Part shown: positions 20,114 through 42,912 of the stretch, piece by piece | How the letters are laid out: the number at the start of each line of letters is the position of its first letter | Numbering within the stretch: position 1 is the first letter of the stretch | Assembly (NCBI GenBank): GCA_015179125.1 | Contig: WHVA01000170.1 | Span: 62,001 to 126,000 of the forward strand | Reading direction: 5' to 3' | Length of the DNA stretch: 64,000 nt | Source of the DNA: Gautieria morchelliformis | Lineage: Eukaryota; Basidiomycota; Agaricomycetes; Gomphales; Gomphaceae | Translations under genes and position numbers: made by a program | The notes under the pieces: generated by a model | Seen by the model: the letters and a program-made list of their open reading frames with translations, nothing else | What the model was told of the DNA's origin: nothing | The model's database searches: none

Positions 20114-21489
20114 TCAACATGATGTCACATGGGGCCGAGTAGGTACGTGGATCCTATGATGGGTGTGCCGAGGGTCATGGATAATGAGTGTCTCCCCAGC
20201 GTTCATCGTGTCAATCTTCCCGATAACCTGGAACGGCCGCCCCAGCAGCACATCGTAAGGCGCATTGTCATCAACCACATGTGCATGAACGGGGATTGTG
20301 ATCGAGCTGATTGTGATTTGTAGGTTCTCCACCACTCCTGTCGTCAAATCACCCTCACCATTCGCCATGGTCATATTGACCCATACATCTGGATTGACGG
20401 CAAGTCCCAGTTTCTTTACTAGCCCATGCCGTATGTTGACTAGCGACGAGGCCGTATCAAACATTCCTATGACCTGGTGTAGTCCCTGAAGCAGAATGTC
20501 CAGTTCCCGTGGTGGGCAATGATACGGTATGGCAATGTCGTCTCCCACTTGCAGAATGTCTGCGTGCTCCGTAAACAAGGCAGGGGTGGAAACTTTACTT
20601 GTCTTAAAATTGTCAACCATCCGCCGTCTCACGTCCGGACAACTCGCGGCGATGTGGCGAAGGGGAAGCATGACAGGCGTATCAAGTACCGCGCTGAAGA
20701 TGTCCTCTGGTGAGCACGACTCTTCAATCTTGGAACGGAACTTATATTGCGTTGTAGAGTCCAATGCCCTGTAACCTCCCGATCCCTGGGCACTGGCTGG
20801 CACCAACAGCACCGGACGTTCTTCTCTCACCTCCTCTTCCCTTTTCCCAGTCCCCCCTTCCTCCACTTCCACTACAAAACCCTCTGTCCTGTTCTTCTCC
20901 AACGATGTGGCATCCGTACCGACGAACATGGCTGGCTGGGTTGGGACTTCATGAATGGATGCCACTGGCACTCGACGGCGCTCCAATTCTGTATCCACCA
21001 CAAATTTGATGCCCTTCTCATGTGTCAGAATTCGTGAGTTGTCCGGCCAACGGTACCAGTCGCCTCGTTGAATAATCTTTCCTTCCTTGATATATTGTGC
21101 AGCCACCTCACATTGTCGGGTAGCGCAGCCGAGTCGTTTACAACAGGCACACAGCCACGGACCATTGGTTTGCAAGTTGTACGATGGCCTTGCCGGCCCG
21201 GAGGTGTGTATGGTGCTGTTTTGACTGTTTGGAACGTCGTAGGTGCTGCGAGACGGTCTGCCACGGTAGGGTAGTAGAGTACCAGTTTCGCATAATTGAC
21301 CACATAGTGGGAATCGTGAACTTGCAGTGAGGTAAGCTTCTTGATTAGGTCGTCCAGTAATTCCGCTGATTCCTTTCCCTTCTCCCTCGCGTCCGTTCCC
21401 CCTTTCCCAAACCGTACTTTCTTGACCCTCCGCTCCTCCTCCTCCTCTGTCTCCACACCTTTGTCCTCCTCCCTCTCTTCATCCTCCAT
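20114..21489 (-). pseudogene. Element D gag C-terminus, degenerate zinc knuckle and protease
   Basis: Two overlapping minus frames (21025-21489 and 20114-21175). The first is Glu/Lys-rich, then PDNVRWLHNISRKERLF. The second starts with a knuckle-like CACCKRLGCATRQC, where the His of a CCHC box is Cys. The aspartic protease follows: IGMFDTASSLVNIRHGL, normally D-[ST]-G-[SA], here D-T-A-S, and the flap or C-terminal part APYDVLLGRPFQVIGKID. The Gly-to-Ala change at the protease site and the frame change argue for a pseudogene. Confidence 0.75.
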
Positions 21490-22277
21490 CTCATCCGCCC
21501 AAGACCAGCGCCCTCGTCCAACTTGCGGCTGTGGATCCAGGTCGAAAGCCTGAAGATGTATTTGGCAGCCTTGAGGACATCCTTGTAGTCATAAGGTATG
21601 GAAATGTCATGATTCGGCTTCGAGATCCACAACTGATGTTTTAAAGTAGTCCTCGTTCGGGGGTGGAAACCGAACCAGAACTGTCGGTCCCGGTCCTCCG
21701 TTGAAATTTTGTTTTGAGCGACGAGCCACTGTGCAATAGGTAAGAATGCATGGTAATAATCATTCAACTCATCTTCATCTGCTATCTCACTGCGTGCAGC
21801 TTTAGCCGTAAACATTTTGAGGGACTGGCGAGTATAGCGGCGTGCCTTAAAGGCATTAGGGTACAGGTCGGCTAAGGATTTCTTGAACTCGTCCCAGTTG
21901 GCTGGGTCGTACCCCTCGAGGACTTCGAAAAGGTTGCGCTGCTTCCTAGTGGCATACCTTCCTATCTGAGCGATACGGTCCGAGTCGGTGAGTTTTGCCG
22001 CCTCTGCTAAGGTTTCGAAGTGATCTAAGAAATCCTCTAATTCAGAATCCTTTCCATCAAAGGTTTTTGGGGCTTTTGATGTCCCTGGTGCTGGCATAGC
22101 AGCCCGTCCGGTGTTGGTAGCTGCCATCATTGTCAGTTGCCTACTCTGAGCTCGGGTAGTTACCTGTACTGATCGAGTGGCACGTGCAGGCGTCATTGAA
22201 GGAATAGGAATTTGCGATCTGCGTGGAATGGTGTGAGAGGTAGATGGTGTTGTCCAAGGATTAGGTGAGTGGCTCAT
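21345..22277 (-). pseudogene. Element D gag (capsid region)
   Basis: ATG at 22277 (MSHSPNPW). The middle has the capsid-like FDGKDSELEDFLDHFETLAE, then RKQRNLFEVLEGYDPANWDEF and WLVAQNKISTEDRDRQFWFGF, a pattern common in basidiomycete gypsy gag proteins. It runs into an Arg-rich tail from a frame change near 21520; the natural continuation is the overlapping frame ending at 21025. Confidence 0.8.
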
Positions 22278-22372
22278 TGCGTTAGAGAGCCTTGAGAGGT
22301 GTCGATAAGCTGATATAGTCGCAAGGTCCTCGTTGTCGAAGGCGCAGTTCCTCGCGGTGGAGCACACCAGTA

Positions 22373-26140: not shown

Positions 26141-26167
26141 ATCAATGCCATCTCACTATCAGTGACT

Positions 26168-26286
26168 CAGACACAAGTCACACTCACACCAGACACAAGT
26201 CACACTCACATCAGACACAAGTCACACTCACATCAGACACAAGTCACACTCACATCAGACACAAGTCACACTCACATCAGACACAG
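26168..26286. repeat. 22-bp tandem repeat, about 5.4 units
   Basis: AGACACAAGTCACACTCACA plus TC is repeated with almost no variation. A second duplication follows (TACCTTATTGATGC..CACTGATCATGTCT at about 26300 and 26369). Confidence 0.95.
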
Positions 26287-27189
26287 TGTTTCACTCCTAC
26301 ATACCTTATTGATGCGCCCCACTGATCATGTCTTTGTCTGCATACATCCACTTTGTTCCACCCACATGTACCTTATTGATGCAGCCCACTGATCATGTCT
26401 GCATATGTCCACCACTCTCCACTTGTGCCACTGCACACTTCATTGCTTAGTCTCGTCCCATTACCTGTTGATCCAGCTCTTTGTATAAAACCTGCTCATG
26501 TATGCTCTCTATTTCTGCAATCAGATAATCAACCTTGATATGTGACTCCCTGTCATGACGCGTTTATTTCCTATACTCAGATGCTCTGTCCTCCCATTCT
26601 CCACTCCACCTCCGTGTTCGCTCCGATTGCCCTTGCCGTGTTCGGCGACCGATCTTTGCTGTCCGCGCCATTCACCATAGCCACACCATCAGAGCACAAT
26701 CGACGTCTTTGGACCGACTTGATAGTTCATCACTGGTCCTATCACCCCCTCTGCTCAACCCTCTTTCAATGTTGCTCCTATGATCGGATTGTCACAATCC
26801 ATGTATTTCCTGCATCTAGTTATCCCCGTTTCCCCTTTCCCCACTCCTGCTCCATGTTTGCTCGGCTTCGCCCCCCACTTCAACCACTCCTCCCCTATGT
26901 CATCTCCGTTCGCCCTTCCTCGCATTTCGCCGAACGACTATTCACTGCTTGTATCATTGGCCAGCAGGCACGCCATCAAACACAATCGACACCCCCTACC
27001 TGGTATGATGGTTCGTCACTGCTCCCATCAGCTTCTCAATCCAACCCCTTTGGGTGTTCATATGGCCAGGATGTGTTCGCGGGACGTCCCGTCCGCAGGT
27101 CGTGTGGGATCAACCCAGTAGACAAAGAGTCCGTGCAGGGTGGCATGTATACAGGTCCCAAGACATGGTTTCATACATAAGTGCCTTCA

Positions 27190-27402
27190 TGTAAAGATAT
27201 CTATCTTAAGCCTCAGGTCACAAGAGCACGACAGAACTTGACCAATGTGTGGTATTCTGATGCTATGTAGTGACAGTGTAAGGGTAAGATGCGATGGGAA
27301 CCGCTGGTCGGTTCCCATGCATAAACTATACAGTGGGTCCCTAAGGGGCCCACTGGGATTATGTAATAACTAATGTACATGTAGATACACGGGTTATTTA
27401 CA
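27190..27402 (-). repeat. 3' LTR of element C
   Basis: 213 bp, preceded on the minus strand by the polypurine tract AGAGGGGGAGGGTG. It differs from the 5' LTR at four sites, each CpG in one copy and TpG or CpA in the other. Confidence 0.95.
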
Positions 27403-27470
27403 CCCTCCCCCTCTATAGATAACTATAGGGGTTAACTACTACTCATAGAGGTCGTCCATGAGGGAGTCCT

Positions 27471-29420
27471 CTAGAGTGGCCGATACGTTGTCGTCGTCGT
27501 CGTACGGGGCCGGAGGAGCACGTGACTCCTCCGGGGGACCTCCGCGTCATCGGTGGTGATTGGGTGAGGCTGGTCGGCCTCACCACTAGCGGCGGTCTCC
27601 ACTTGGGTGCTGGGGCCCGTGTCCTCGCGGAGCATGGCCTCAACGGCCGGGTCCTCCGTTTGAGGAGGGGGCCGGAAGTGCGCCAGCTCTTGGTCGAGCT
27701 GAGCGTGAGTGAGGGGTCGCGGCACCGCGGCCCTCACATGGCTGGTCTCGATGACCTTTTGTTGGCCCTCACGGGCGGCGGCGCTGAATGCCACGCCGGT
27801 GATGCTGCGCTGAACGTAATGTTCAATGCGCGCCGCTCGCTCGCGAGTGACTCCCGCGTAGCGGGCCAACCATCTCGCGATCTCCGCGAGTGGGATGTCG
27901 GGGCCGGCTCGGCCCTCCACAGGGAATGGGCCCGTGATTGAGAGCCACAGGGTGGTGCTCTGAGGCGTCAGCACTTCCCTGGCGTCGACGAGGCTCGACC
28001 ATTGGTCCGTCGAGCCGAAGAGGTCGAGTAGCCTCGCCCTGAGCGGTGATGCGACCCCTTTGACCCGGGGTGCAAGGGCCTTCAACCACATCCAGACGTC
28101 CATGTCGTCTAGGTTGAAGGTGCCATCCGCGTTGTCACGGATGGTGGAGGGGATTCCTTCAGGGTTGTGTATCCAACCCTTTAGAATGGCCGCGATGTCG
28201 TGCGGGGTACCGCCCGCTATCACGAGACAATCCCTTTTGGGATTGCGAGCGCGTTGTTCGCACTCGATGTGTTTGAATATGCCGATCATCTCGCGCATAC
28301 GCGCAAGCTGCGGCGTTTCTTTTGCCCGCGCTATGAGTTCGACGAAGTGTGGGTCGTCAAGCGGGCAGATGTCATACCATTAAGTACGACGCTGTTGGGC
28401 CTTTCCTACTGGTCGTGGTAGGAGGCCCGTCTCGGAGATCGGTGGATCTCCGAGTGGGATGATCAGTCCCTCCCCCAGGTAGGGAGGGTGAACTGTCCCC
28501 ACCGGCGGAGGTAGGGCCAGGCCAGGCCCGATGTACTGGGCCTCGACCTGTGCTACCCGCCGCTGAAGGGCGGGGTCGTTGATGGTGTGTGACGATGACG
28601 CCGCTAGGTAAGCGCTGATTGCGCTTTCCTTCGCAATGGCTAGCCCATTGACGGTGTGGAGGGAGCCGTGCAATTTCTTGTGCTTTTTCTTTGGCTGCTC
28701 TGTCAGCCGCTGTGCCCGTTCGGGGTCGTACATCTTCCAGACGGACGAGTCGGACTCCCATCCATCTGGGACGCCGTACGCAGAGTCGGAAGGTGTGCTC
28801 TGCCCTTCCGTCATTGTCGTGGTCGGAGTCAGCGCCGACAATCGGGACGCTAGCCCCGATGTTGCGTGCGCCGGCAACGGCGCCGTCGCGCGAGGTGAAG
28901 ATGGCCCGGCCACTGGGTCCGTGGCCGGGTCATGTCGCGGCCTTTTTGAGGCAGCGTGGACCAGGGTAACCTGGAGCTGGGCTGCACTCAGCTGCTGCTC
29001 CAGTTCCTTGATCCTGGCGCGCTCGGTTACGAGCGCGTCGTCGCGGTCCTCGACCGCGCATTCTAGCTCCTTGACCTCTTTTTTGAGGTCTTGGACGTCC
29101 CGGAGGGGCTCTTCTCATGCGTCACACGCGATGCCCCTTGGGAGCCATCCCCAAGCTGCATCGACGGCGTCGCCGATGTCTTCATCCCGCAACTTGACCT
29201 TGCGGGTGCCGGTCACGGCCCTAAGGTGCGCGGCGTAGTCCGCGCACGTTGCGCAATCGTCCGAGTGGACGATGGCGAGGGCGTCCTCCCATCCCACAAT
29301 CATCCAGTGCTCCTGGTCTATCGGAGCACGGAGAATGTCAGCGGCCCCTTGTCTCGGGGCCGTTGTTCGTGTTGTGGACGTTGACGGGTCAACGTCCATC
29401 CCATCTTTGGGGGGCATCAT
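27471..29420 (-). pseudogene. Extra post-pol ORF of chromovirus C (650 codons, two stops), function unknown
   Basis: One reading frame spans 29420 to 27471 with only two stops: TGA at 29115-29117, where a CGA is one CpG transition away, and TAA at 28380-28382. ATG at 29420 lies 95 bp after the pol stop. Predicted parts: a small N-terminal domain (HWMIVGWEDALAIVHSDDC, two Cys, to about residue 100), a coiled-coil-like stretch (DLKKEVKELECAVEDRDD; RIKELEQQL), a Pro/Ser/Thr-rich linker, then a C-terminal domain (IAAILKGWIHNPEGIPS; LDDMDVWMWLKALAPRVKG; PLAEIARWLARYAGVTRERA) and an Arg/Thr-rich tail. There is no signal peptide or membrane segment, so it is not an envelope-like protein. It is an accessory ORF of the element; I do not recognise its family with certainty. 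Confidence 0.75.
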
Positions 29421-29515
29421 CTTCGTGGGTAGATGATGGTGGTGGTTGCTTCCAAGAAGCGATGCGCCCTCGGAAAGATCTGAGGTGAAAATTTAACCGC
29501 GCCGTGGCCGGCGCG

Positions 29516-29884
29516 TCACGTGGTCTGCACGTGACAGACGCGTCTAGCGGCGTCTGGGGAGGTCGCGTGGCTTGCCCACCCCCCAAGCTCTAGGTAGCTA
29601 TCTAGGGCTTCGAGGTCCTTGCAGGACAACATGGGTTCCCATGTCACGTCACCTAGGGTCCAACGGACCTGGAACTCCAGGTCCGTCGAGTTTATCCATC
29701 GATGTGCGATAATCTCGTCGACGAGCCACTCCTCGTCATTATTTGCTCTGAAGTCATAAAATGACTTGGCCTCGTGACGAGGGAACAATTCGTCGTTGTT
29801 AGCCTCATATCGCCGCACGAGGCTGGAATGGAAGACCGGTGAAATGCGACGGCTTTTCAGTTCGTCGGGAAGATCGAGGGTCAC
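29516..29884 (-). pseudogene. Element C pol C-terminus with chromodomain
   Basis: Contains the integrase C-terminal motif (LPDELKSRRISPVFHSSLVRRY) and then a chromodomain: EEWLVDEIIAHRWINSTDL, FQVRWTLGDVTWEP, LEALDSYLEL. Chromodomains of this group bind modified histone H3 and direct integration to heterochromatin (family knowledge). It is linked to the integrase frame by a shift between 29885 and 30054. Confidence 0.88.
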
Positions 29885-30053
29885 CGTCGAGGCGTCGTTG
29901 TGAGCCTGACACGCGGTACGGTCCGATACCGCGGGACGAGCTTTCTGGCTCTTCCTTTCGGGAGAGTTAGGTTTTGTGTCGAAAGGTAGACGCGGTCGTT
30001 GGCCGCGTACCTGTCGCTCGCCATATGTTTCTTATTTGCATGAAACGTTTGCG

Positions 30054-31007
30054 TCACTCATGCTCTATGATTGCATCGTGTGCCACCATCAGGTTCCATT
30101 TTGCCTGATGTGCGAATCGGGCCACCCCCTTGAATGGGGTGTCCGCGGATATGGGGAGGTCTATCCGCGGCATATAGCCGTGGTTCAGCTCGAAAGGTGC
30201 GAATCCTGTGGTCACGCTGATGTTGCTGTTGAGGGCGACCTCAACCATTGGGCATTTCACTGCCCAATCCTTCTGATCGTCTCTGATGACCGCGCGCAAT
30301 ATCTGGCCGATCGAGCGGTTTGCCCGCTCGGTGGCTCCATCCATTTGTGGATGGAAGGCAGTTGACATGAGGAGCTTAGTCCCCATGAGTCGCTGGAGTT
30401 CACGCCAGAAGATCGACGTGAACTTTGAGTCTCTGTCCGAGACGATGGAGTCGGGAACTCCGTGCAGTCGGATGACCTCTTTCAGAAACAGCCAGGCTAC
30501 TCCCTTGGCTGACACGCTCGTCGTGGTTGGCACGAGGTGTACGAGCGACGTTAGTCGGTCGATGACTACCATCAGGTAGTCACAGTCGTTGGATTTGGGC
30601 AGGGGCCCCATGAAGTCGATGCCAATCGACTGCCACGGCCTATCCGGAATGGGTAGGCTGTGTAGTAGGCCTTTGGGCCGTTGTGGCCCGGTTTTCGTCA
30701 TCTGACACCTCGCGCACGATGTGCAGAACGCTTCTATGTCTGGGTTCATGCCCGGCCACCAATATGCTCTTCGAACGTAGTTCGAAGTCTTCAGATGGCC
30801 GTAGTGGCCGACTATCTGATGTGCCCGATCGATGATAATTTCGATCAGCCTCCTTCCCCCTTGAAGAACAGAGCGGGGGACGGCAATGACGTCTCTCTTG
30901 AGCTGATTCTTAGTCCAGATCAGCCCGTCCCGGATCCCGAATCTCGGGTGCGCGTCTGGGTGCGCCATGATCTTTGTGAACATGGTGTCCCTATGGTACC
31001 ATCTCAT
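30054..31007 (-). pseudogene. Element C integrase
   Basis: The H2C2 zinc module is intact (HQIVGHYGHLKTSNYVRRAY..CTSCARC). The DDE core has Asp in SIGIDFMGPLPKS, Asp in VSDRDSKFTS and Glu in DGATERANRSIGQ. The GPY-like C-terminal region is reached only after a frameshift near 30054. This is the best-preserved domain of the element. Confidence 0.9.
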
Positions 31008-31023
31008 AGGACCTTAGACAGGT

Positions 31024-31704
31024 CTACGCCTTGCTCGACGATCCGGCGCAGGGGTGCGCCGTCATTCCCTGCGGCGATGGCTCTGACGTCATCGTCGTCG
31101 TCGCTGGACGCGGCGACGTTCGCGGCTCTGGTGAGCCCTCGTTTAATGCGGCGGCTTCCGTTACTCTCGCCTCTGTCTTCTCAGCGAGGCGTTTAGAGCG
31201 TCTTGTCGCCGCTGTTCGCAGCTCGACATACCGGTCGGTGGGCAATAACTCACCGTCCGGGTCTAAACGCGCATCCGCGTTCACGAAGACGTGGTCCGGG
31301 TGATTGTCATCACTCGTGTCGCTCTCGTAGTAGCGCGACAGGCAGTCCGCTACCTTGTTCTCTACACCGTCTACATGAACGGTGTTGAAATTGAACCGGG
31401 ATAGAAACTCCCACCATCTGACCTGTCGGTCAGATAGGCTCTTTTGGGTCTCGAAGTACTCGAGTCCCTTGTGGTCTGTGATGAGGGTGAACCTTCGCCC
31501 CAGCAGTTTGTCCTCCCATTTCATGAGAGCCTCGAGCACCGCGATCGTCTCGTGCTCGTGAGTCCGGTAGTGTTGCTGAGCAACGCTGAACTTCTTTGAC
31601 AAGAAGCCGGCTGGTCGACAAGTTTTCCAGTCAGGACCTTGGCCGTAGACCGCACCGACGCCGGCTTTTGATCCGTCGGTGATCACCCAGATCGCTCTGG
31701 GCAC
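31024..31704 (-). pseudogene. Element C RNase H
   Basis: WVITDGSKAGVGAVYGQG carries the first acidic residue; the Glu (HEHETIAVLEAL) and later Asp residues (LITDHKGLEYF; KVADCLSRYY) are present. A charged linker with RRSKRLAEKTE then leads to the integrase frame. Confidence 0.88.
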
Positions 31705-31734
31705 CTTGCGTCTACTGGACGCAGGATCGGGGCC

Positions 31735-32813
31735 TTACAGGCCAACCCTTAATGCTTTGCCAGCATTTGTCGAGCAGTGGTGTCCATTCGAATGGACGGT
31801 TATTACGCGCACAGCCCGATAGCGGGGTGGTATATGCGCTAACATCCGGCATGTAGTGTGCCAGATACTGTACAGCCCGAGGAAACGCTGGACGTCATTG
31901 AACGTCCGTGGCCTGCGCCACTCGCGGATGCGTTGCATCTTATCCTCGTCGGCATGTACCCCTCGGCCATCGATCATATGGCCGAGGCACTCCATTCGGA
32001 TGGAGTAGAGGTCCACCTTTTTCTTGCTCAGAAAGAGGTGGTTCTTCCTCAGTCTGTCAAAGACGATGTAGAGGTGTTCTTCATGCTCTTGTATTGAGAG
32101 CGAGAATATGAAGATGTCGTCCATGTATACATGGACGAAGCGACCTATGCAGTCGGGAAAATGGCTGTCATCAGCCGTTGGAATGTTGATGGGGCGTTAC
32201 AGTCCCCCATCTGTATCACCTGGCTCCTGAAGGTGCCAAGGATCGTGGCAAAGGCTGTCTTTGCTACGTGATCCGGATGGATCCGGATCTGCTCGTATGC
32301 TTCTGACATATCGAGTTTAGTTCGATATTGGCAGCGAGCCATGTCGCTGCGTATGATATCCTGATCCGGGAAGGGTGTGACGTCCTTCACCGTGTTTTCG
32401 TTCTGCTGGCGCAGATCGAAGACGGTTCTCAACGTACCGTTCTTCTTCGGCACACACAGCATGGGCACTGCCTGCTGCGCTACTGCCGGAATCCACCACT
32501 TTGCAGTGGTGTATCGTTCTATCTTTGCCGACAGTTCCTCTCGGAAGTGTTCGGGGCATTTCGGTAGTCGATACCGCATGTGCTTGTTGGGATCGATGAG
32601 GTTGATCTCATGGTTGATCTCCCGCAGTGGCGGGAGTTCTAATGGAATTCCACTGACTAGGTCAGTGATTCTTTCCATCCATTCCTCGCGGAGGCGAGGA
32701 AGGTCATCATCCATGAGGATGATGGTAGTGGTTGGCTTAGATGCCATTAGGCGCTGTTGGCGTCTATTAGGTCCCGCGGCCGGGCCCGCTTTCCTCTTTC
32801 CCATCGCTTTCAC
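31735..32813 (-). pseudogene. Element C reverse transcriptase
   Basis: Two frames. 32145-32813 has MLCVPKKNGTLRTVFDLRQQN, KLDMSEAYEQIRIHPDHVAKTAF and QMGDCNAPSTFQRLM. After a one-base loss near 32160 the frame moves to 31735-32124, which begins with the intact catalytic YMDD box (MDDIFIFSLS) and continues HLFLSKKKVDLYSIRMECLGH. A second shift near 31870 displaces the thumb and connection. In addition, WWIP stands where relatives usually have a conserved RT motif start, but that may be natural variation. Confidence 0.88.
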
Positions 32814-33260
32814 CGTTAGGTGAGAGCGTCTCTCCCTACGACTGTAGGGTGAGTTCGAGGACGAGTCGTCCCGCGACTCGTCCTCCTGGCTTCAATGAGC
32901 CAGGTTCGGCGTCGGCGCTTGGGTGATCCTGCTCACCCGTGGCCCTTTGTCCTCGTTCTTCGATTCGTCATTGTCGAATGAGACCTTGCCCGTGGGGATC
33001 ACCTCGTTTCCCTTGCGGATCGTCCCTGGGCTCGAGAAGTCCAGGGTTATGCCGAATCTCCTTAGGAACGGTGTCCCTAAGATCGCGTCGTAATATTCGA
33101 CTTTGCTACGTCGAAGTATTCGTCGTATGTCCCACGACCAAACTTGATGGTCGTGTTCGTTCCATAGTTGATCGTGGAACGGCTGCCTATGCAGGCTAGC
33201 TGCAGCGCGATTGGTTGCTCCAGGGAGAATGTCTTCATCCTGTAGCTCGCGTGAATTCGG
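32814..33260 (-). pseudogene. Element C protease second half and linker
   Basis: Minus frames read IGSRSTINYGTNTTIKFGRG, then after a shift YYDAILGTPFLRRFGITLDF, the conserved ILG region at the end of retropepsins. At least two one-base shifts (near 33100 and 33235) separate it from gag and protease start. Confidence 0.7.
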
Positions 33261-35404
33261 GGGACAGCAGTACCCCTTCGCTGCCGCTATCTAGCAGGCA
33301 GTGGGCTTTTACGCCGTTTATTTCCCAGTACCCCGATAGGGTACGGTTCTCACTACGCGGACCGTTGGCCGCGTTCTGTGTTTGCTTCGGTGGTGATACA
33401 CCGGCTCGGCCGCCTTGTCTGGGTGACCGATGTGCGTGCCGCCATGACTTTCGTGGCGGTTTCATCTTCCAGCGCGAATCTGATCGCGCTGGACCTGTAG
33501 GTGGTGTCCTCCACCTCTTCGTCCCATTCATAGTATTGGGACGGCTCAGGGTCCCACTCTTCAGCGGGCGTGTCTCCGTTATCCGGAGTGTCGTTGGGTT
33601 GGGGATCTCCCTCCCCCTCTTCATCAATTTGTTGAAGAGAGTTTTGATCGGGATCCGTCTCCGATCCTCGGCCTCACCGTCGTGCCTCACGGCCGCTGTC
33701 CTTATACCGGACCTAAGCCGGGGGCATTCTGCCTTCTTGTGGCCAGGTTGGCCACATTCAAAGCATGTGGTGTTGCTTTGGCTGCCGCTGGGCCTGTCGT
33801 TGGGCCGGCCCGACGTTTTCGTCGGTGGGGCAGGTCGCGGGGACGATCCTGACGCTTGAGGCTGTTTAGCTTCAGGCGGGCGTCCAGCTTGTGCTGGGCG
33901 TGAGGGCGGTAGCCGTTGACCTGTTCCGCTTCTTGCGAACAGGCTGGGCCTGGTCAGGCCCGTTTGTGTCAACGGCTTGCTCCCTGTGAGCCGGGCAGCG
34001 CTTGCCGTTGCTGCTGCGCTTTCTGGGTGGCGCATCCCCATGTTGTATCGGGATGCCTCCTCGATCATCCGGGCCGTCTCGAAGAGTTGCTCTATTGAGC
34101 TGCTCTCGGCATTATAGCCCTTTTTGAGGACCTCGTTGCGCAGCGTTTCGCGTAGCGCCGATACGAACCGTCTCCGGAATGTGTACTCGTCTGGTGGCTG
34201 TATCATACGTGCCACGTATTTCGTGAGCTCGTTCAGCATCTCCTGAACGGTTTTCATGCCTTGCATGACCGCGTCGAACTTATTCGATGCGTGATGGTAT
34301 GTCAGTGTGTGCAGGAACCTCTTTTGAAGGCCTTGCATCACAGATTCCAGCGTCCAGCTGCGGACCTGGCGATCGAAGCGTTCAACGTTTCGAAGGAACC
34401 ATTCCTGGGCTTCGCCGGTGAGGTGAGTGCCCACATAGCCGACCTGCGTGTCAATGCTGGTTGGCCCTAGGAGGCAATTCATTTTTAGCCATTGTAGGAT
34501 GGCTGCCACGAAGATTTCAAACTCTTCGAGGTCCGATCCCCCTGCATATGGCTCGGGGTGGGCCAATTTTACGCCGGCCTTCGCTAGCACAGACTTCTCC
34601 AGGTCTGTGTCCGCGGCGTCTGCCAACGCCACGCGGATCATCCGTGTGATCCCGTCGTACGGCTCCATTGGTACGACGTCGGCCTGGTCGGGGATTCCCT
34701 GGCCTTCCGTTGGGGCCATGGATCGCTCGCGTGGTTGTGACGCCGCACGGGGCAGGCTGTTATATGCCCTGACGGGCCCCGGGCTCGGGATCGGGAGCAT
34801 TTTGTGCTCTCGGTTCTGGGGGCGTTTTGTGCCTGGTGTCCCCAGTCAGTCCCGCGTTGCGGATCCGTAGCCTGCTGTTGTAGGCAGTGCACACTTGCCG
34901 TGCGTCCTGTACAGCTTGCGGGAGGTGCTCGTCGGGCAGCTGAGCGGTGTGGCTATGGGCCACCGTCTCTTCGGCGTTCTTTGCTAGTAGCTCGAGTGCC
35001 CGTGTGTGGCGGCGCGCGGCTGCGGCTTCTTTATGCTGCCAGTGTGCGACTTCAAGCTCTAAGCTCTCGGTCGTCGTTTCAGAGTCAGGCTCTGAGGCGA
35101 CCTGATCCCTAACGATCTGTTGGATTGTTTTACGGCTGTCCGTTGGGGCAGCCGGTTGCTCCTGAGGTTCGTTCCCGAACCTTACGTCCTGTTCGACCAG
35201 GACGGCTGGCGGCGGCATTCGCTGTTTGTCTCGCTCCTTTCGGCGCGCATCGCAACTGCATTCGTTAGCTGCGGACTGTCGCGAGCTCGGATGAGTTGCG
35301 TCGCATTCCCCGCATGGGCGGAGTGCTTTCTGGACGTCCTCCACCGTGGCTGCATCTTGCAGCCTGACCTCCTCCGCCTGGTGGAGTTCCTTGCCGATTG
35401 CCAT
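33235..35404 (-). pseudogene. Element C gag with zinc knuckle and protease active site
   Basis: Frame 34760-35404 is Gln/Glu-rich with ALRPCGECDATHP. Frame 33235-34800 has capsid features (EIFVAAILQWLKMN, TGEAQEWFLRNV, FRRRFVSALRETLRNEVL), a Pro/Ser-rich linker, a classical CCHC knuckle CFECGQPGHKKAEC, and at its end the protease site AHCLLDSGSEGVLLS with D-S-G intact. The overlap of 41 bp between the two frames indicates a frameshift near 34780. Confidence 0.85.
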
Positions 35405-35456
35405 TAGGGCGGTGGCGGCATTGTCAAGCTGCGATGCCAGCTGATTGTTGGGTGCA

Positions 35457-35977
35457 TTTATGCTCCTGCACCAAAATCAAGCATAATATATTCAATTTAC
35501 TGTATGGTGTTTCAATTTCTTCTCATATTGTTCTTGTACCATGCATTCATTTCTCTGTTTATTTTCGAAATTTTCCAGTCACTCCCTACCTCTCCATTTC
35601 ATGTTGTTATTTCTACTTTCATAGGCGGCTGCACCCAGCGGAGTCTGAAATGACTTCGACGCACGAGCTCTTGGGCGCTAAAGGGCCGGGTAGTAGTACA
35701 TGCACAGTGAGACAGATTTCCCCCTCTCTCAGTGACAACTAAATTCACTGAGAGAGGCAAGTAAATTAGTCTAGTGTTCCTTCGATTTATTGACCTAGAA
35801 ATACTCTGTAGTGAATTAATTTCTAGGTAGTGTATAATATATTTATAGTGACAACTAAATTCACTGAGAGAGTGAATTAATTTCTAGTCTATTCTTTTGA
35901 GCAACAAGTCCATACCTACTGCCTATAATTCCTGTCTACTACACTGATCGTGCTTGTGGCGCGTCAGCGTACTTCAG
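35457..35977. mobile_element. ~521-bp insert in element C gag, TGCA on both sides
   Basis: Gag-like coding (HTIDHETAEALNKQVQAAL) stops at about 35981 and resumes at about 35455 (NNQLASQLDNAATAL). The non-coding DNA between is flanked by TGCA at 35453-35456 and 35978-35981. It contains a 12-bp perfect inverted repeat (CTCTCTCAGTGA at 35724-35735 with TCACTGAGAGAG at 35745-35756), a second copy of that motif near 35849, and TGAATTAATTTCTAG twice. It is not intron-like in length. Superfamily unknown. Confidence 0.55.
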
Positions 35978-36147
35978 TGCAGCGCAGCCTGCACCTGTTT
36001 GTTCAGGGCCTCTGCCGTCTCGTGGTCGATGGTGTGAGCCCTCGAGCTCTTGCAACTAGAGCTTGAGTATTCCGAGTCCTGACCATCGTCTGGGGCTCGT
36101 CTCTTTTGCCGTCGTCCTCCTTCAGGGACGATCGTCGTCGCTCTACT

Positions 36148-36507
36148 TCATGAGCATCGGTTTGAGTCGTGGCTTTGTGCCCGTCTCAACGTTGTTGCTC
36201 TACCGTCTGACAACAGCGAGACTTCTCTGCCCTTTCCTTTGTCCTCGGGCAGAGGGAGATGGGGGGGCGGTGCCGGCTCGTCGCTCGGCATCATCTCTTC
36301 TTCAGCCACGCTCGACGAGACGTGGTCGGGGTTTTCCTTGTTCTCTACTGCGGGGACGAGGGCGGTGAGATCTACGATCTCTCCGTCTTCTATCGTCCTG
36401 GTCTCTTGGTCCAGGATAGCGTCAGCCGTCGTGTCACTGGGCTGCGCCTGGGGTGTGGACCTCGAGCTCGTCGCTCGTGTCCGTCTTCGACTGCGTGGAA
36501 TCATCAT
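36148..36507 (-). pseudogene. Element C gag N-terminus
   Basis: ATG at 36507 (MMIPRSRRRTRATSSRS), then DQETRTIEDGEIVDLTALVP. The downstream frame shifts repeatedly before the 521-bp insert. It lies just inside the 5' LTR and is the likely start of gag. Confidence 0.65.
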
Positions 36508-36645: not shown

Positions 36646-36858
36646 TGTAAAGATATCTATCTTAAGCCTCAGGTCACAAGAGCACGACAGAACTTGACCA
36701 ATGTGTGGTATTCTGATGCTACGTAGTGACAGTGTAAGGGTAAGATGCAATGGGAACCGCTGGTCAGTTCCCACGCATAAACTATACAGTGGGTCCCTAA
36801 GGGGCCCACTGGGATTATGTAATAACTAATGTACATGTAGATACACGGGTTATTTACA
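36646..36858 (-). repeat. 5' LTR of element C
   Basis: 213 bp. Inside it the element reads CCTTTTTGAACTATCC where the primer-binding site is expected; I could not assign a tRNA, and self-priming as in Tf1 relatives is possible. Confidence 0.95.
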
Positions 36859-37740
36859 CTTCACCACCTTTACTCTCTGTCATTTCATGTTCGCCCTCCT
36901 CCCTCACTCTATTGTATGTTTATTTCATCTATTTTGTATCATTGCTGCGCACCCCTATCCAACCCTGACTCACAACGGCCTCTTTCCTATTCACTGATAC
37001 CTTACGAGCATTCGATATAAGTAGTTTACATTCGCATGTATATTCCTCAGTTCAATTATCATATGTCGTCCATCTTGTGCAAACTTGACCTCGCTGTGAT
37101 CATCGTCTTGAGCCTTCTCCTGGATATTTATATCTTCGACCAGAAGAGGACTTAGGCATCACTGGTGAGTTCTCATACTTCATCTTCATTACCTTAGCCT
37201 TCAAAATATTTTCTATGCTGTCGGCGAAGGGATTGTCACTACTTAGACAACCCTTCCGTAACACCTTGCACGTTACATTGTCAATTGCCACAGGCTATTT
37301 CGCAACGACTGTAGATAGTGCGAGCTCCGTTCGGGCAGCCCTCTTATCCTGTGAACATTTGTTGGTTTACCTATTCGCCGAACGGCATACTTATTCGCAC
37401 AAGTTATTCAGGCATTCGCTGTGTTCACTAATACATGATATTAACGCCTAAAAACCAATCTTGACACTCCCTTCACATTATCTCCTGTTCTTAACACAGC
37501 GAGTTTTGCAAGACCTCTGTCTCTCTGCCTTATGACATTCTGCCTTCCGCCTCTCCAACCTCTGACATCCAACCTTTCAACTTATCTTGACTCTCAAATC
37601 CTCCTCTACCTCCACCTCTTCTGATCCCAGATACTCAGTTCCAAAATACTTAGGATGATAGTTTATTGGGGGTACAACATATAAGTTGAAGCCACTGCAC
37701 TTTCTAGTTCTGACTTCTGGGATTCTCAAATGTAACACTG

Positions 37741-41902: not shown

Positions 41903-42912
41903 TGTCATGATGCGTTTATTTCCTATACCCAGTCGCTATGTCCTCCCATTCCTCACTCCACCTCTATGTTCGCTCCGATCACCCTTTGCCGAGTTCAGCG
42001 ACCAGTCTTTGCTGTTCGTGTCATTCACCATAGCCACACCATCAAAGCATGATCAACGTCCTTTGACTGGCTTGGTGGTTCATCACTGGCCCTATCACCT
42101 CCTCGGCTCAACCCCCTTTCGATGTTCCTATGGTCGGATTGTCACAACTCGTGTATTTCTTGCACCCAGCTATCCCTGTTTCCCCTTTCACTCCTCCCCC
42201 ATGTTCGCTCGGCTTTTCCCCTCCCTTCGACCACACCTCCTCTATGTTCTCTCCATTCGCCCTTCACCACATTCACCAAACGACCATTCGCTGCTCACAT
42301 CATTCACCAGCAGGCACGCCATCAAACGCGATCGACATCCTCTACCCGGTGTGATGGTCCATCACTGGCCCCATCATCTTCCCAATGCAACCCCTTTAGG
42401 TGTTTATATGGCCAGGATGAACCGTAGATCGTGTGGGATCAACCCAGCAAACGAAGAGTCCGTGCAGGGTAACATATATGCAGGTCGCGAGGCGTGTTTT
42501 CATACATAGGTGCCTTCGTCCTCTTTTCTCCCCGTCCCTTTTCCTTCTTCCTATTGTATGTGTTTCATCTATTCTGTATCCTGACTGCGCACCCTTATCC
42601 AAACCTGACTCCTAACAGCCTCTTTCCCATTCGCCAATATCATATGAGCATTTGATATAAGTAGTCTACATTCGCATGTATATTCCCCAGTTCAATTATC
42701 ATACATCTATCTTGTGCAAACTTGACCTCAATGTGATCATCATCTTGAGGCTTCTCCTGTAGATTCCTATCTTCGACCAAAGGAGGAGTTGAGCACCACT
42801 GGTGAGTTTTCATACTTCACCTTCGTTACCTTAGCCTTCGAACTACTCTCTGTGCTGTCGGCGAAGGGCTCCGAAGGAGTGCCTTTGCCGGCGAAAGGAT
42901 TGTTGCTACTTA
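41903..42912 (+). repeat. LTR B copy, 3' part missing
   Basis: Starts TGTCATGATGCG and is collinear with 26551-27189 joined to 36859 onward. Homology stops at CTACTTA (42912), about 200 bp short of the LTR end, where DIRS-like sequence begins. Just upstream (41615-41680) is a small array of TATTGTCCCAT-type units. Confidence 0.85.

Follow-up and report, generated by a model that had tools for sequence, protein, structure and literature searches.

The window analyzed here is a 64,000-nucleotide stretch of Gautieria morchelliformis DNA (contig WHVA01000170.1, positions 62,001 to 126,000). It contains a 9.7-kb Ty3/Gypsy retrotransposon on the minus strand, with a chromo-like domain and three genes: gag, pol, and, between pol and the 3' long terminal repeat (LTR), a third open reading frame (ORF3). 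ORF3 is a genuine third gene and not a chance frame. Its ATG lies at 29420 on the minus strand, separated from the pol stop (29516-29518) by a gap of 95 nt, and its frame is open to 27471 except for TGA at 29115-29117 and TAA at 28380-28382. The original prediction, made from the letters of the window, had described an extra gene 95 nt past the pol stop in pol orientation with two in-frame stops, one of them TGA at 29115, and this is borne out. Its interval of 27471..29420 was correct in the start and the open frame but not in the end, as it missed a frameshift near the 3' end. Alignment of the window copy with an open copy holds through residue 632 of 663 (~27534), after which the window copy leaves the family frame; the conserved C terminus (...SATLEDSLMDDLYE-stop) is encoded in another frame and terminates at 27439-27441. 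Because of this frameshift, the true end of ORF3 is 27439, not 27471. In open copies, the gene is ~663 codons long. ORF3, its parts, and the spacer ahead of it are as follows.

27439..29420, minus strand: ORF3, with two stops and a frameshift after ~27534 (window frame compared with open copies)
29118..29420, minus strand: ORF3 N-terminal domain with an H-x3-C-x2-C-x4-H motif (retained in 39/44 copies, with the same spacing in the metagenome relative P0011)
28383..29114, minus strand: ORF3 coiled coil, Pro/Ser linker, and basic stretch resembling a nuclear signal (sequence and model)
27528..28379, minus strand: ORF3 C-terminal Trp-rich helical domain (pN/pS without CpG changes, 0.203)
29421..29515, minus strand: spacer of 95 nt from the pol stop to the ORF3 start, with the inverted repeat CCTCGGA-TCTT-TCCGAGG

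ORF3 copies in the genome

Copies were sought across the 122-Mb genome (1,113 contigs). From the best 130, 150, 125, and 150 scored matches (783 to 1,892 candidates each), ORF3 occupies at least ~325 places, a count in which a copy split by an insertion may appear twice. Among the matches listed (5,805 candidates), ORF3 lay downstream of 63/125 integrase copies and on the wrong side of a single one (1/125). Six of the 62 integrase copies without a listed ORF3 were inspected: one had a nearly whole ORF3 after pol, three had the N-terminal part directly after pol, and two were interrupted by other sequence before the ORF3 start. No element cleanly lacking ORF3 was present in this small sample. 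ORF3 is thus a sense additional ORF, located between pol and the 3' LTR on the pol strand in many copies.

The original prediction had made its case depend on whether other copies carry the ORF. They do, and 8 of the 62 copies compared are open from residue 4 or earlier through the end. Nine loci that repeated others by residues 400 to 600 were dropped before these counts (L031, L039, L046, L048, L052, L061, L062, L070, and the window extract), of which L048 may be a distinct place with an identical stretch. An apparent 45% identity at the N terminus of L051 reads as frameshift noise.

Selection on ORF3 and decay of its copies

ORF3 is under purifying selection. The ratio of nonsynonymous to synonymous differences (pN/pS) was pooled over 1,891 pairs from 62 copies, with codons set on the coordinates of one open copy. 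It was 0.360 in frame, compared with 1.17 in the +1 frame and 1.36 in the +2 frame; without CpG-type transitions, the values were 0.371, 1.44, and 1.52, respectively. The purifying selection for which the original prediction had proposed a test is seen among copies within the genome. By part, again without CpG changes, pN/pS was 0.29 for the N terminus, 0.39 for the coiled coil, 0.40 for the linker, and 0.20 for the C-terminal domain. The end of pol (27 copies) gave 0.302, or 0.262 without CpG changes; the C-terminal domain of ORF3 is constrained like the end of pol (0.20 versus 0.26). Median pairwise dN/dS ranged from 0.21 to 0.51 across dS bins and was highest in the closest pairs (0.51 at dS ≤0.1, then 0.31 and 0.27 in the next two bins), as expected if lineages are selected while moving and decay after insertion.

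The original prediction had attributed one of the stops to a CpG transition. At the level of the family, TGA stops recur in separate copies at the same arginine CpG codons, which is a mark of CpG decay, and all four positions at which the LTRs of the window element differ are CpG-type transitions (alignment read by eye). The heavy CpG decay of the copies would point to silencing by host methylation.

Relatives of the ORF3 protein

A protein search with one sequence retrieved nine proteins, comprising five Gautieria gene models and four metagenome proteins, the latter with 36 to 49% identity. The profile search that the original prediction had called for found diverged relatives elsewhere: 369 at E ≤0.001 (8,000 candidates scored; best 120 listed), many of them from short ENA contigs that may be copies within a few species. 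The metagenome protein P0011 (693 residues) is 39% identical to an open copy (249/638 columns; E = 2e-127). This alignment begins at MDVDP in both sequences, and the conserved start suggests that ORF3 is translated from its own start codon. P0011 and the open copy share the H..DC..C block, the MAPLP.RA.SGLA.R linker block, the basic stretch, and the C-terminal domain, in which at least 20 columns are fully or almost fully conserved across 26 sequences, near NPEG[VI]P, WMW, and LFGE..QW. The common plan consists of H-x3-C-x2-C-x4-H, a long coiled coil, a Pro/Ser linker, a KKRKK-like nuclear signal, and a helical domain, with an acidic tail in many relatives. A DS..DD.Y end was found in 26/123 database proteins, including P0014 and P0020 (32 to 34% identical). 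Pattern scans of prokaryotic and viral contigs gave 32 and 8 matches, respectively, with zero relatives among them. We infer that the metagenome relatives are also tied to a retrotransposon.

Three Gautieria "hypothetical proteins" (P0006, P0009, and P0010) contain ORF3 pieces fused to unrelated sequence and are probably gene-model artifacts. The G. morchelliformis protein P0009 maps in separate, collinear pieces to contig C288 of the genome (first 92 residues, 100% identity; last 82, 98%; other pieces, 75 to 92%), in agreement with this species (Gomphales) as the host. The existence of gene models containing ORF3 pieces is what one would expect if ORF3 were a captured host gene fragment, a passenger with no role for the element. 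P0006 and P0009, however, read as joins of ORF3 pieces with unrelated sequence, and no independent host gene turned up in a search that was not exhaustive. In-frame selection, the hundreds of places, and the diverged metagenome relatives also argue against a passenger, and we consider this explanation highly improbable.

Protein features and predicted fold

An additional gene downstream of pol in a Gypsy element is commonly regarded as an envelope relic, and the position of ORF3 would suit an envelope-like gene. However, no membrane helix or hydrophobic stretch was seen in the open copy or in P0011 by hydropathy, which was used without a dedicated signal-peptide program. The highest 19-residue means are 1.06 and 0.92, respectively, and the N terminus is not hydrophobic. 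An envelope is unlikely because no membrane segment is seen; the nuclear-type signal and the lack of any viral fold match at E ≤0.001 also speak against it. We give an envelope-like gene almost no credence, in agreement with the original prediction. The four parts that it had proposed (a small N-terminal domain, a coiled coil, a Pro/Ser linker, and a conserved Trp-rich C-terminal domain) are likewise all supported.

The basic stretch K-[KR]-x-[KR] is retained in 50/51 copies, and because of this conservation the protein is probably nuclear. The H-C-C-H motif may bind zinc. The acidic tail LED[SA][LI]MD[DN]LYE is present in 51/58 copies. In the structure model of P0011, residues 75 to 159 form a helix (block predicted local distance difference test [pLDDT] score of 79 to 98) whose best matches are the long helices of solved coiled coils, and the model also contains a second long helix and a helical C-terminal domain. 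The protein probably oligomerizes via the coiled coil.

Pfam gave no match to the N terminus, and a PDB sequence search with the C-terminal domain profile gave nothing at E ≤1. The match of DUF7518 to the coiled coil (E = 1.4e-4 for the window piece and 0.0059 for the open copy) fell below the cutoff in both cases. Weak matches to other coiled-coil Pfam families were set aside, as were those to carboxymuconolactone decarboxylase (E = 0.14), TED_complement on P0028 (E = 0.011), and Glutaredoxin2_C on P0020 (E = 0.068).

The long coiled coil, the second long helix, and the helical C-terminal domain would also suit a structural or chaperone partner of Gag, namely, a coiled-coil, nucleic acid-binding protein of the ribonucleoprotein or virus-like particle. 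ORF1p of LINE elements is comparable to such a protein in use, although not in origin. Retention of ORF3 in hundreds of copies under constraint resembling that on pol is in line with this role. Yet capsid and CCHC knuckle are already provided by the Gag of the element, the role needs no conserved basic nuclear-type signal, and no capsid-like fold was matched with a model that is only fair. A Gag partner therefore appears doubtful.

The nuclear-type signal and the coiled coil are equally compatible with an integration, chromatin, or antisilencing factor, that is, a nuclear oligomer that would tether the preintegration complex or shield element DNA. The CpG decay described above, with the methylation silencing to which it would point, is also in line with such a factor. 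Against this, the chromo-like C terminus of pol already offers a putative targeting module, and no chromatin-reader domain was recognized in ORF3 by Pfam. We regard such a factor as possible but unlikely.

Inverted repeats and candidate regulatory sites

The spacer repeat is perfect (CCTCGGA-TCTT-TCCGAGG) in 27 of the 42 copies in which the spacer was located. It contains CGG-N6-CCG, an arrangement also found in some binding sites of fungal Zn2Cys6 factors, and it could be an internal promoter mark or an RNA hairpin. Visual inspection of the repeat for covariation gave no case for it, as CpG decay alone explains the changes. A candidate splice acceptor ahead of ORF3 (window, TTTTCACCTCAG) was likewise rejected: 34/42 copies read CGG instead of CAG, and it is thus a decayed rather than a conserved site. 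Within the LTR, the inverted repeat CAGTGGGCCCC-TTA-GGGACCCACTG is exact in 53/62 copies. A second, imperfect LTR repeat (ATGGGAACCG-ACCAG-CGGTTCCCAT) in the window copy is less symmetric in most copies.

The acidic tail, the coiled coil, the possible zinc module, and the near-invariant LTR inverted repeat together fit a transcriptional regulator as well. In its specific form, this proposal holds that ORF3 encodes an oligomeric nuclear regulator whose HCCH module and coiled coil would bind the LTR inverted repeats and whose acidic LEDSLMDDLYE tail would recruit the host transcription machinery. The CGG-N6-CCG repeat ahead of ORF3 would perhaps also be recognized. The regulator would form a feedback loop comparable to that of retroviral Tax or Tas. 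We put this detailed version forward as tentative, with a rather low probability.

Proposed function of ORF3

We favor a more general reading, which we rate as evenly balanced between right and wrong: ORF3 is a third gene of an Agaricomycete Ty3/Gypsy lineage, kept by selection, whose product is a nuclear accessory protein that would act on the nucleic acids of its own element. Such a product would be a soluble protein of ~660 to 690 residues that oligomerizes through its long coiled coil. In the nucleus, it would either raise LTR transcription or handle the genomic RNA of the element. Selection acting on the element itself would maintain the gene, which appears to be required by each mobile copy. 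A regulatory role is suggested by the nuclear signal, the coiled coil, and the acidic tail, together with analogy to nuclear accessory proteins of other retroelements. A role as an RNA exporter is weakened, as neither an export signal nor a splice site is conserved.

Several observations weigh against a nuclear accessory protein. The HCCH motif is lost in 5/44 copies, many of the copies being dead, and P0011 lacks the DS..DD.Y tail. Without CpG changes, constraint is weak for residues 236 to 340 (pN/pS, 0.65), within which the basic stretch falls, and for residues 581 to 640 (0.51). It is weaker still for the tail (0.82), the case for which rests on residue counts. Counting transversions alone gave 0.243 in frame and 0.244 in frame +2; as this variant does not discriminate between frames, it was set aside as a control. 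The structure model is only fair (mean pLDDT of 63), and searches of Pfam, PDB sequences, and folds gave no match that reveals the function of the C-terminal domain. Finally, no nuclear export pattern is conserved: the leucine-rich pattern matched once in the copy L007 (0.37 expected from shuffles) and was absent from P0001, P0011, P0014, and P0020; an unconventional signal may still be present.

Comparison with known retroelements

Additional ORFs after pol are already known from plants and rotifers. The closest parallel is CERV of Cer1, a Caenorhabditis elegans Ty3/Gypsy element. CERV is a nuclear protein needed to export genomic RNA (PMC10309623). Like ORF3, it is a non-envelope product encoded between pol and the 3' LTR, with a zipper or coiled coil, a KRKK-type nuclear signal, a Cys-containing motif, structured parts joined by linkers, and no homology beyond its own lineage (PMC10309623). 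CERV (517 residues) is made from a spliced mRNA whose first exons are in the gag frame, and a candidate export signal is named for it (PMC10309623). For ORF3, the MDVDP start suggests separate initiation, the splice-acceptor candidate is not conserved, and no export pattern is conserved. Of the features of CERV- or Rev-like proteins, ORF3 thus has the nuclear signal and oligomerizing helix, by sequence and prediction, but not the leucine-rich export signal.

In plants, the additional ORFs of the LTR retrotransposons Grande (GENE23) and Retand (TRP28) are antisense, whereas ORF3 is sense; the Grande product is nuclear (PMC7264820, PMC11963269), as that of ORF3 is predicted to be. Transposase_28, the Pfam family that marks TRP28, is not among the Pfam families at E ≤1 for the three window pieces, L007, P0011, P0020, P0014, and P0028. 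Rotifer LTR retrotransposons resemble the present element in having third ORFs downstream of pol that are specific to each family and mostly do not encode envelopes; some of these contain coiled coils (PMC5408684). They differ in including enzymatic types (GDSL esterase and DEDDy exonuclease), neither of which is among the ORF3 Pfam matches. For fungi, an "add. ORF" of Gypsy elements, its function not known, is marked in a figure, with neither sequence nor analysis in the passages covered (PMC2864245). The accessible parts of two surveys of fungal LTR elements mention neither env nor a third ORF (PMC3248453, PMC3411680). In the open-license literature, as far as its accessible text extends, we found no description of the ORF3 family or of a fungal retroelement with its own nuclear regulator.

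ORF3 is not an envelope gene and not a relic: hundreds of copies and diverged lineages retain it, and no Pfam family includes its protein. It hints that some fungal retrotransposons carry their own helper or regulator. If ORF3 does encode a regulator, a fungal retrotransposon would have a control gene of its own, and the family's very high copy number in a 122-Mb genome could be examined from that angle. Annotators can now recognize scattered Agaricomycete "hypothetical proteins" as pieces of a transposon gene.

Other features of the element and its flanks

The remainder of the element has the Ty3/Gypsy order, with a Gag containing a CCHC knuckle followed by reverse transcriptase and integrase, flanked by LTRs.

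36646..36859, minus strand: 5' LTR, 214 bp (210/214 identity with the 3' LTR; TGAAG at both outer flanks)
33235..34800, minus strand: gag part, with Ty3-type capsid and CCHC knuckle (PF19259, PF03732, PF00098)
29516..33234, minus strand: pol, broken in the window copy, with reverse transcriptase, integrase, and chromo-like C terminus (Pfam matches)
27190..27403, minus strand: 3' LTR, 214 bp, with inverted repeats inside

The target duplication is TGAAG, and the purine tract GAGGGGGAGGG abuts the 3' LTR immediately upstream. Matches in gag were PF19259 (E = 2.8e-6; 27.3 bits, below the cutoff of 29.1), PF03732 (E = 8.2e-6), and PF00098 (E = 1.6e-4). Those in pol were PF00078 (E = 2.9e-8) and PF17921 (E = 2.4e-16), with PF00665 (E = 6.2e-7) and PF00385 (E = 0.0017) below their cutoffs. 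Both genes are in pieces in the window copy because it is decayed. Upstream of gag, positions 34760-36507 on the minus strand contain open pieces of 119 and 214 codons in different frames, which suggests that Gag has a long N-terminal extension disrupted here by frameshifts.

The original prediction had called the element a chromovirus. The PF00385 chromodomain match is at the expected place, the C terminus of pol, but it scores 18.6 bits in the window and between 17.3 and 21.9 bits in three further copies, all under the Pfam cutoff of 25.1. One of the copies checked for the chromodomain also matched a Tf2-1-like SH3 domain (PF24626; E = 9.6e-13).

The flanks of the element (26551-27188 and 36923-37231) resemble 41903-42868 (83 to 87% alike), an older repeat. 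The insertion is thus nested, as the element sits within one copy of this repeat, the other being at 41903-42868. Tandem repeats of a 22-base unit (CAGACACAAGTCACACTCACAT) at 26167-26307 adjoin the element. Farther away, open pieces at 20114-22367 on the minus strand look like the gag and protease of another retroelement.
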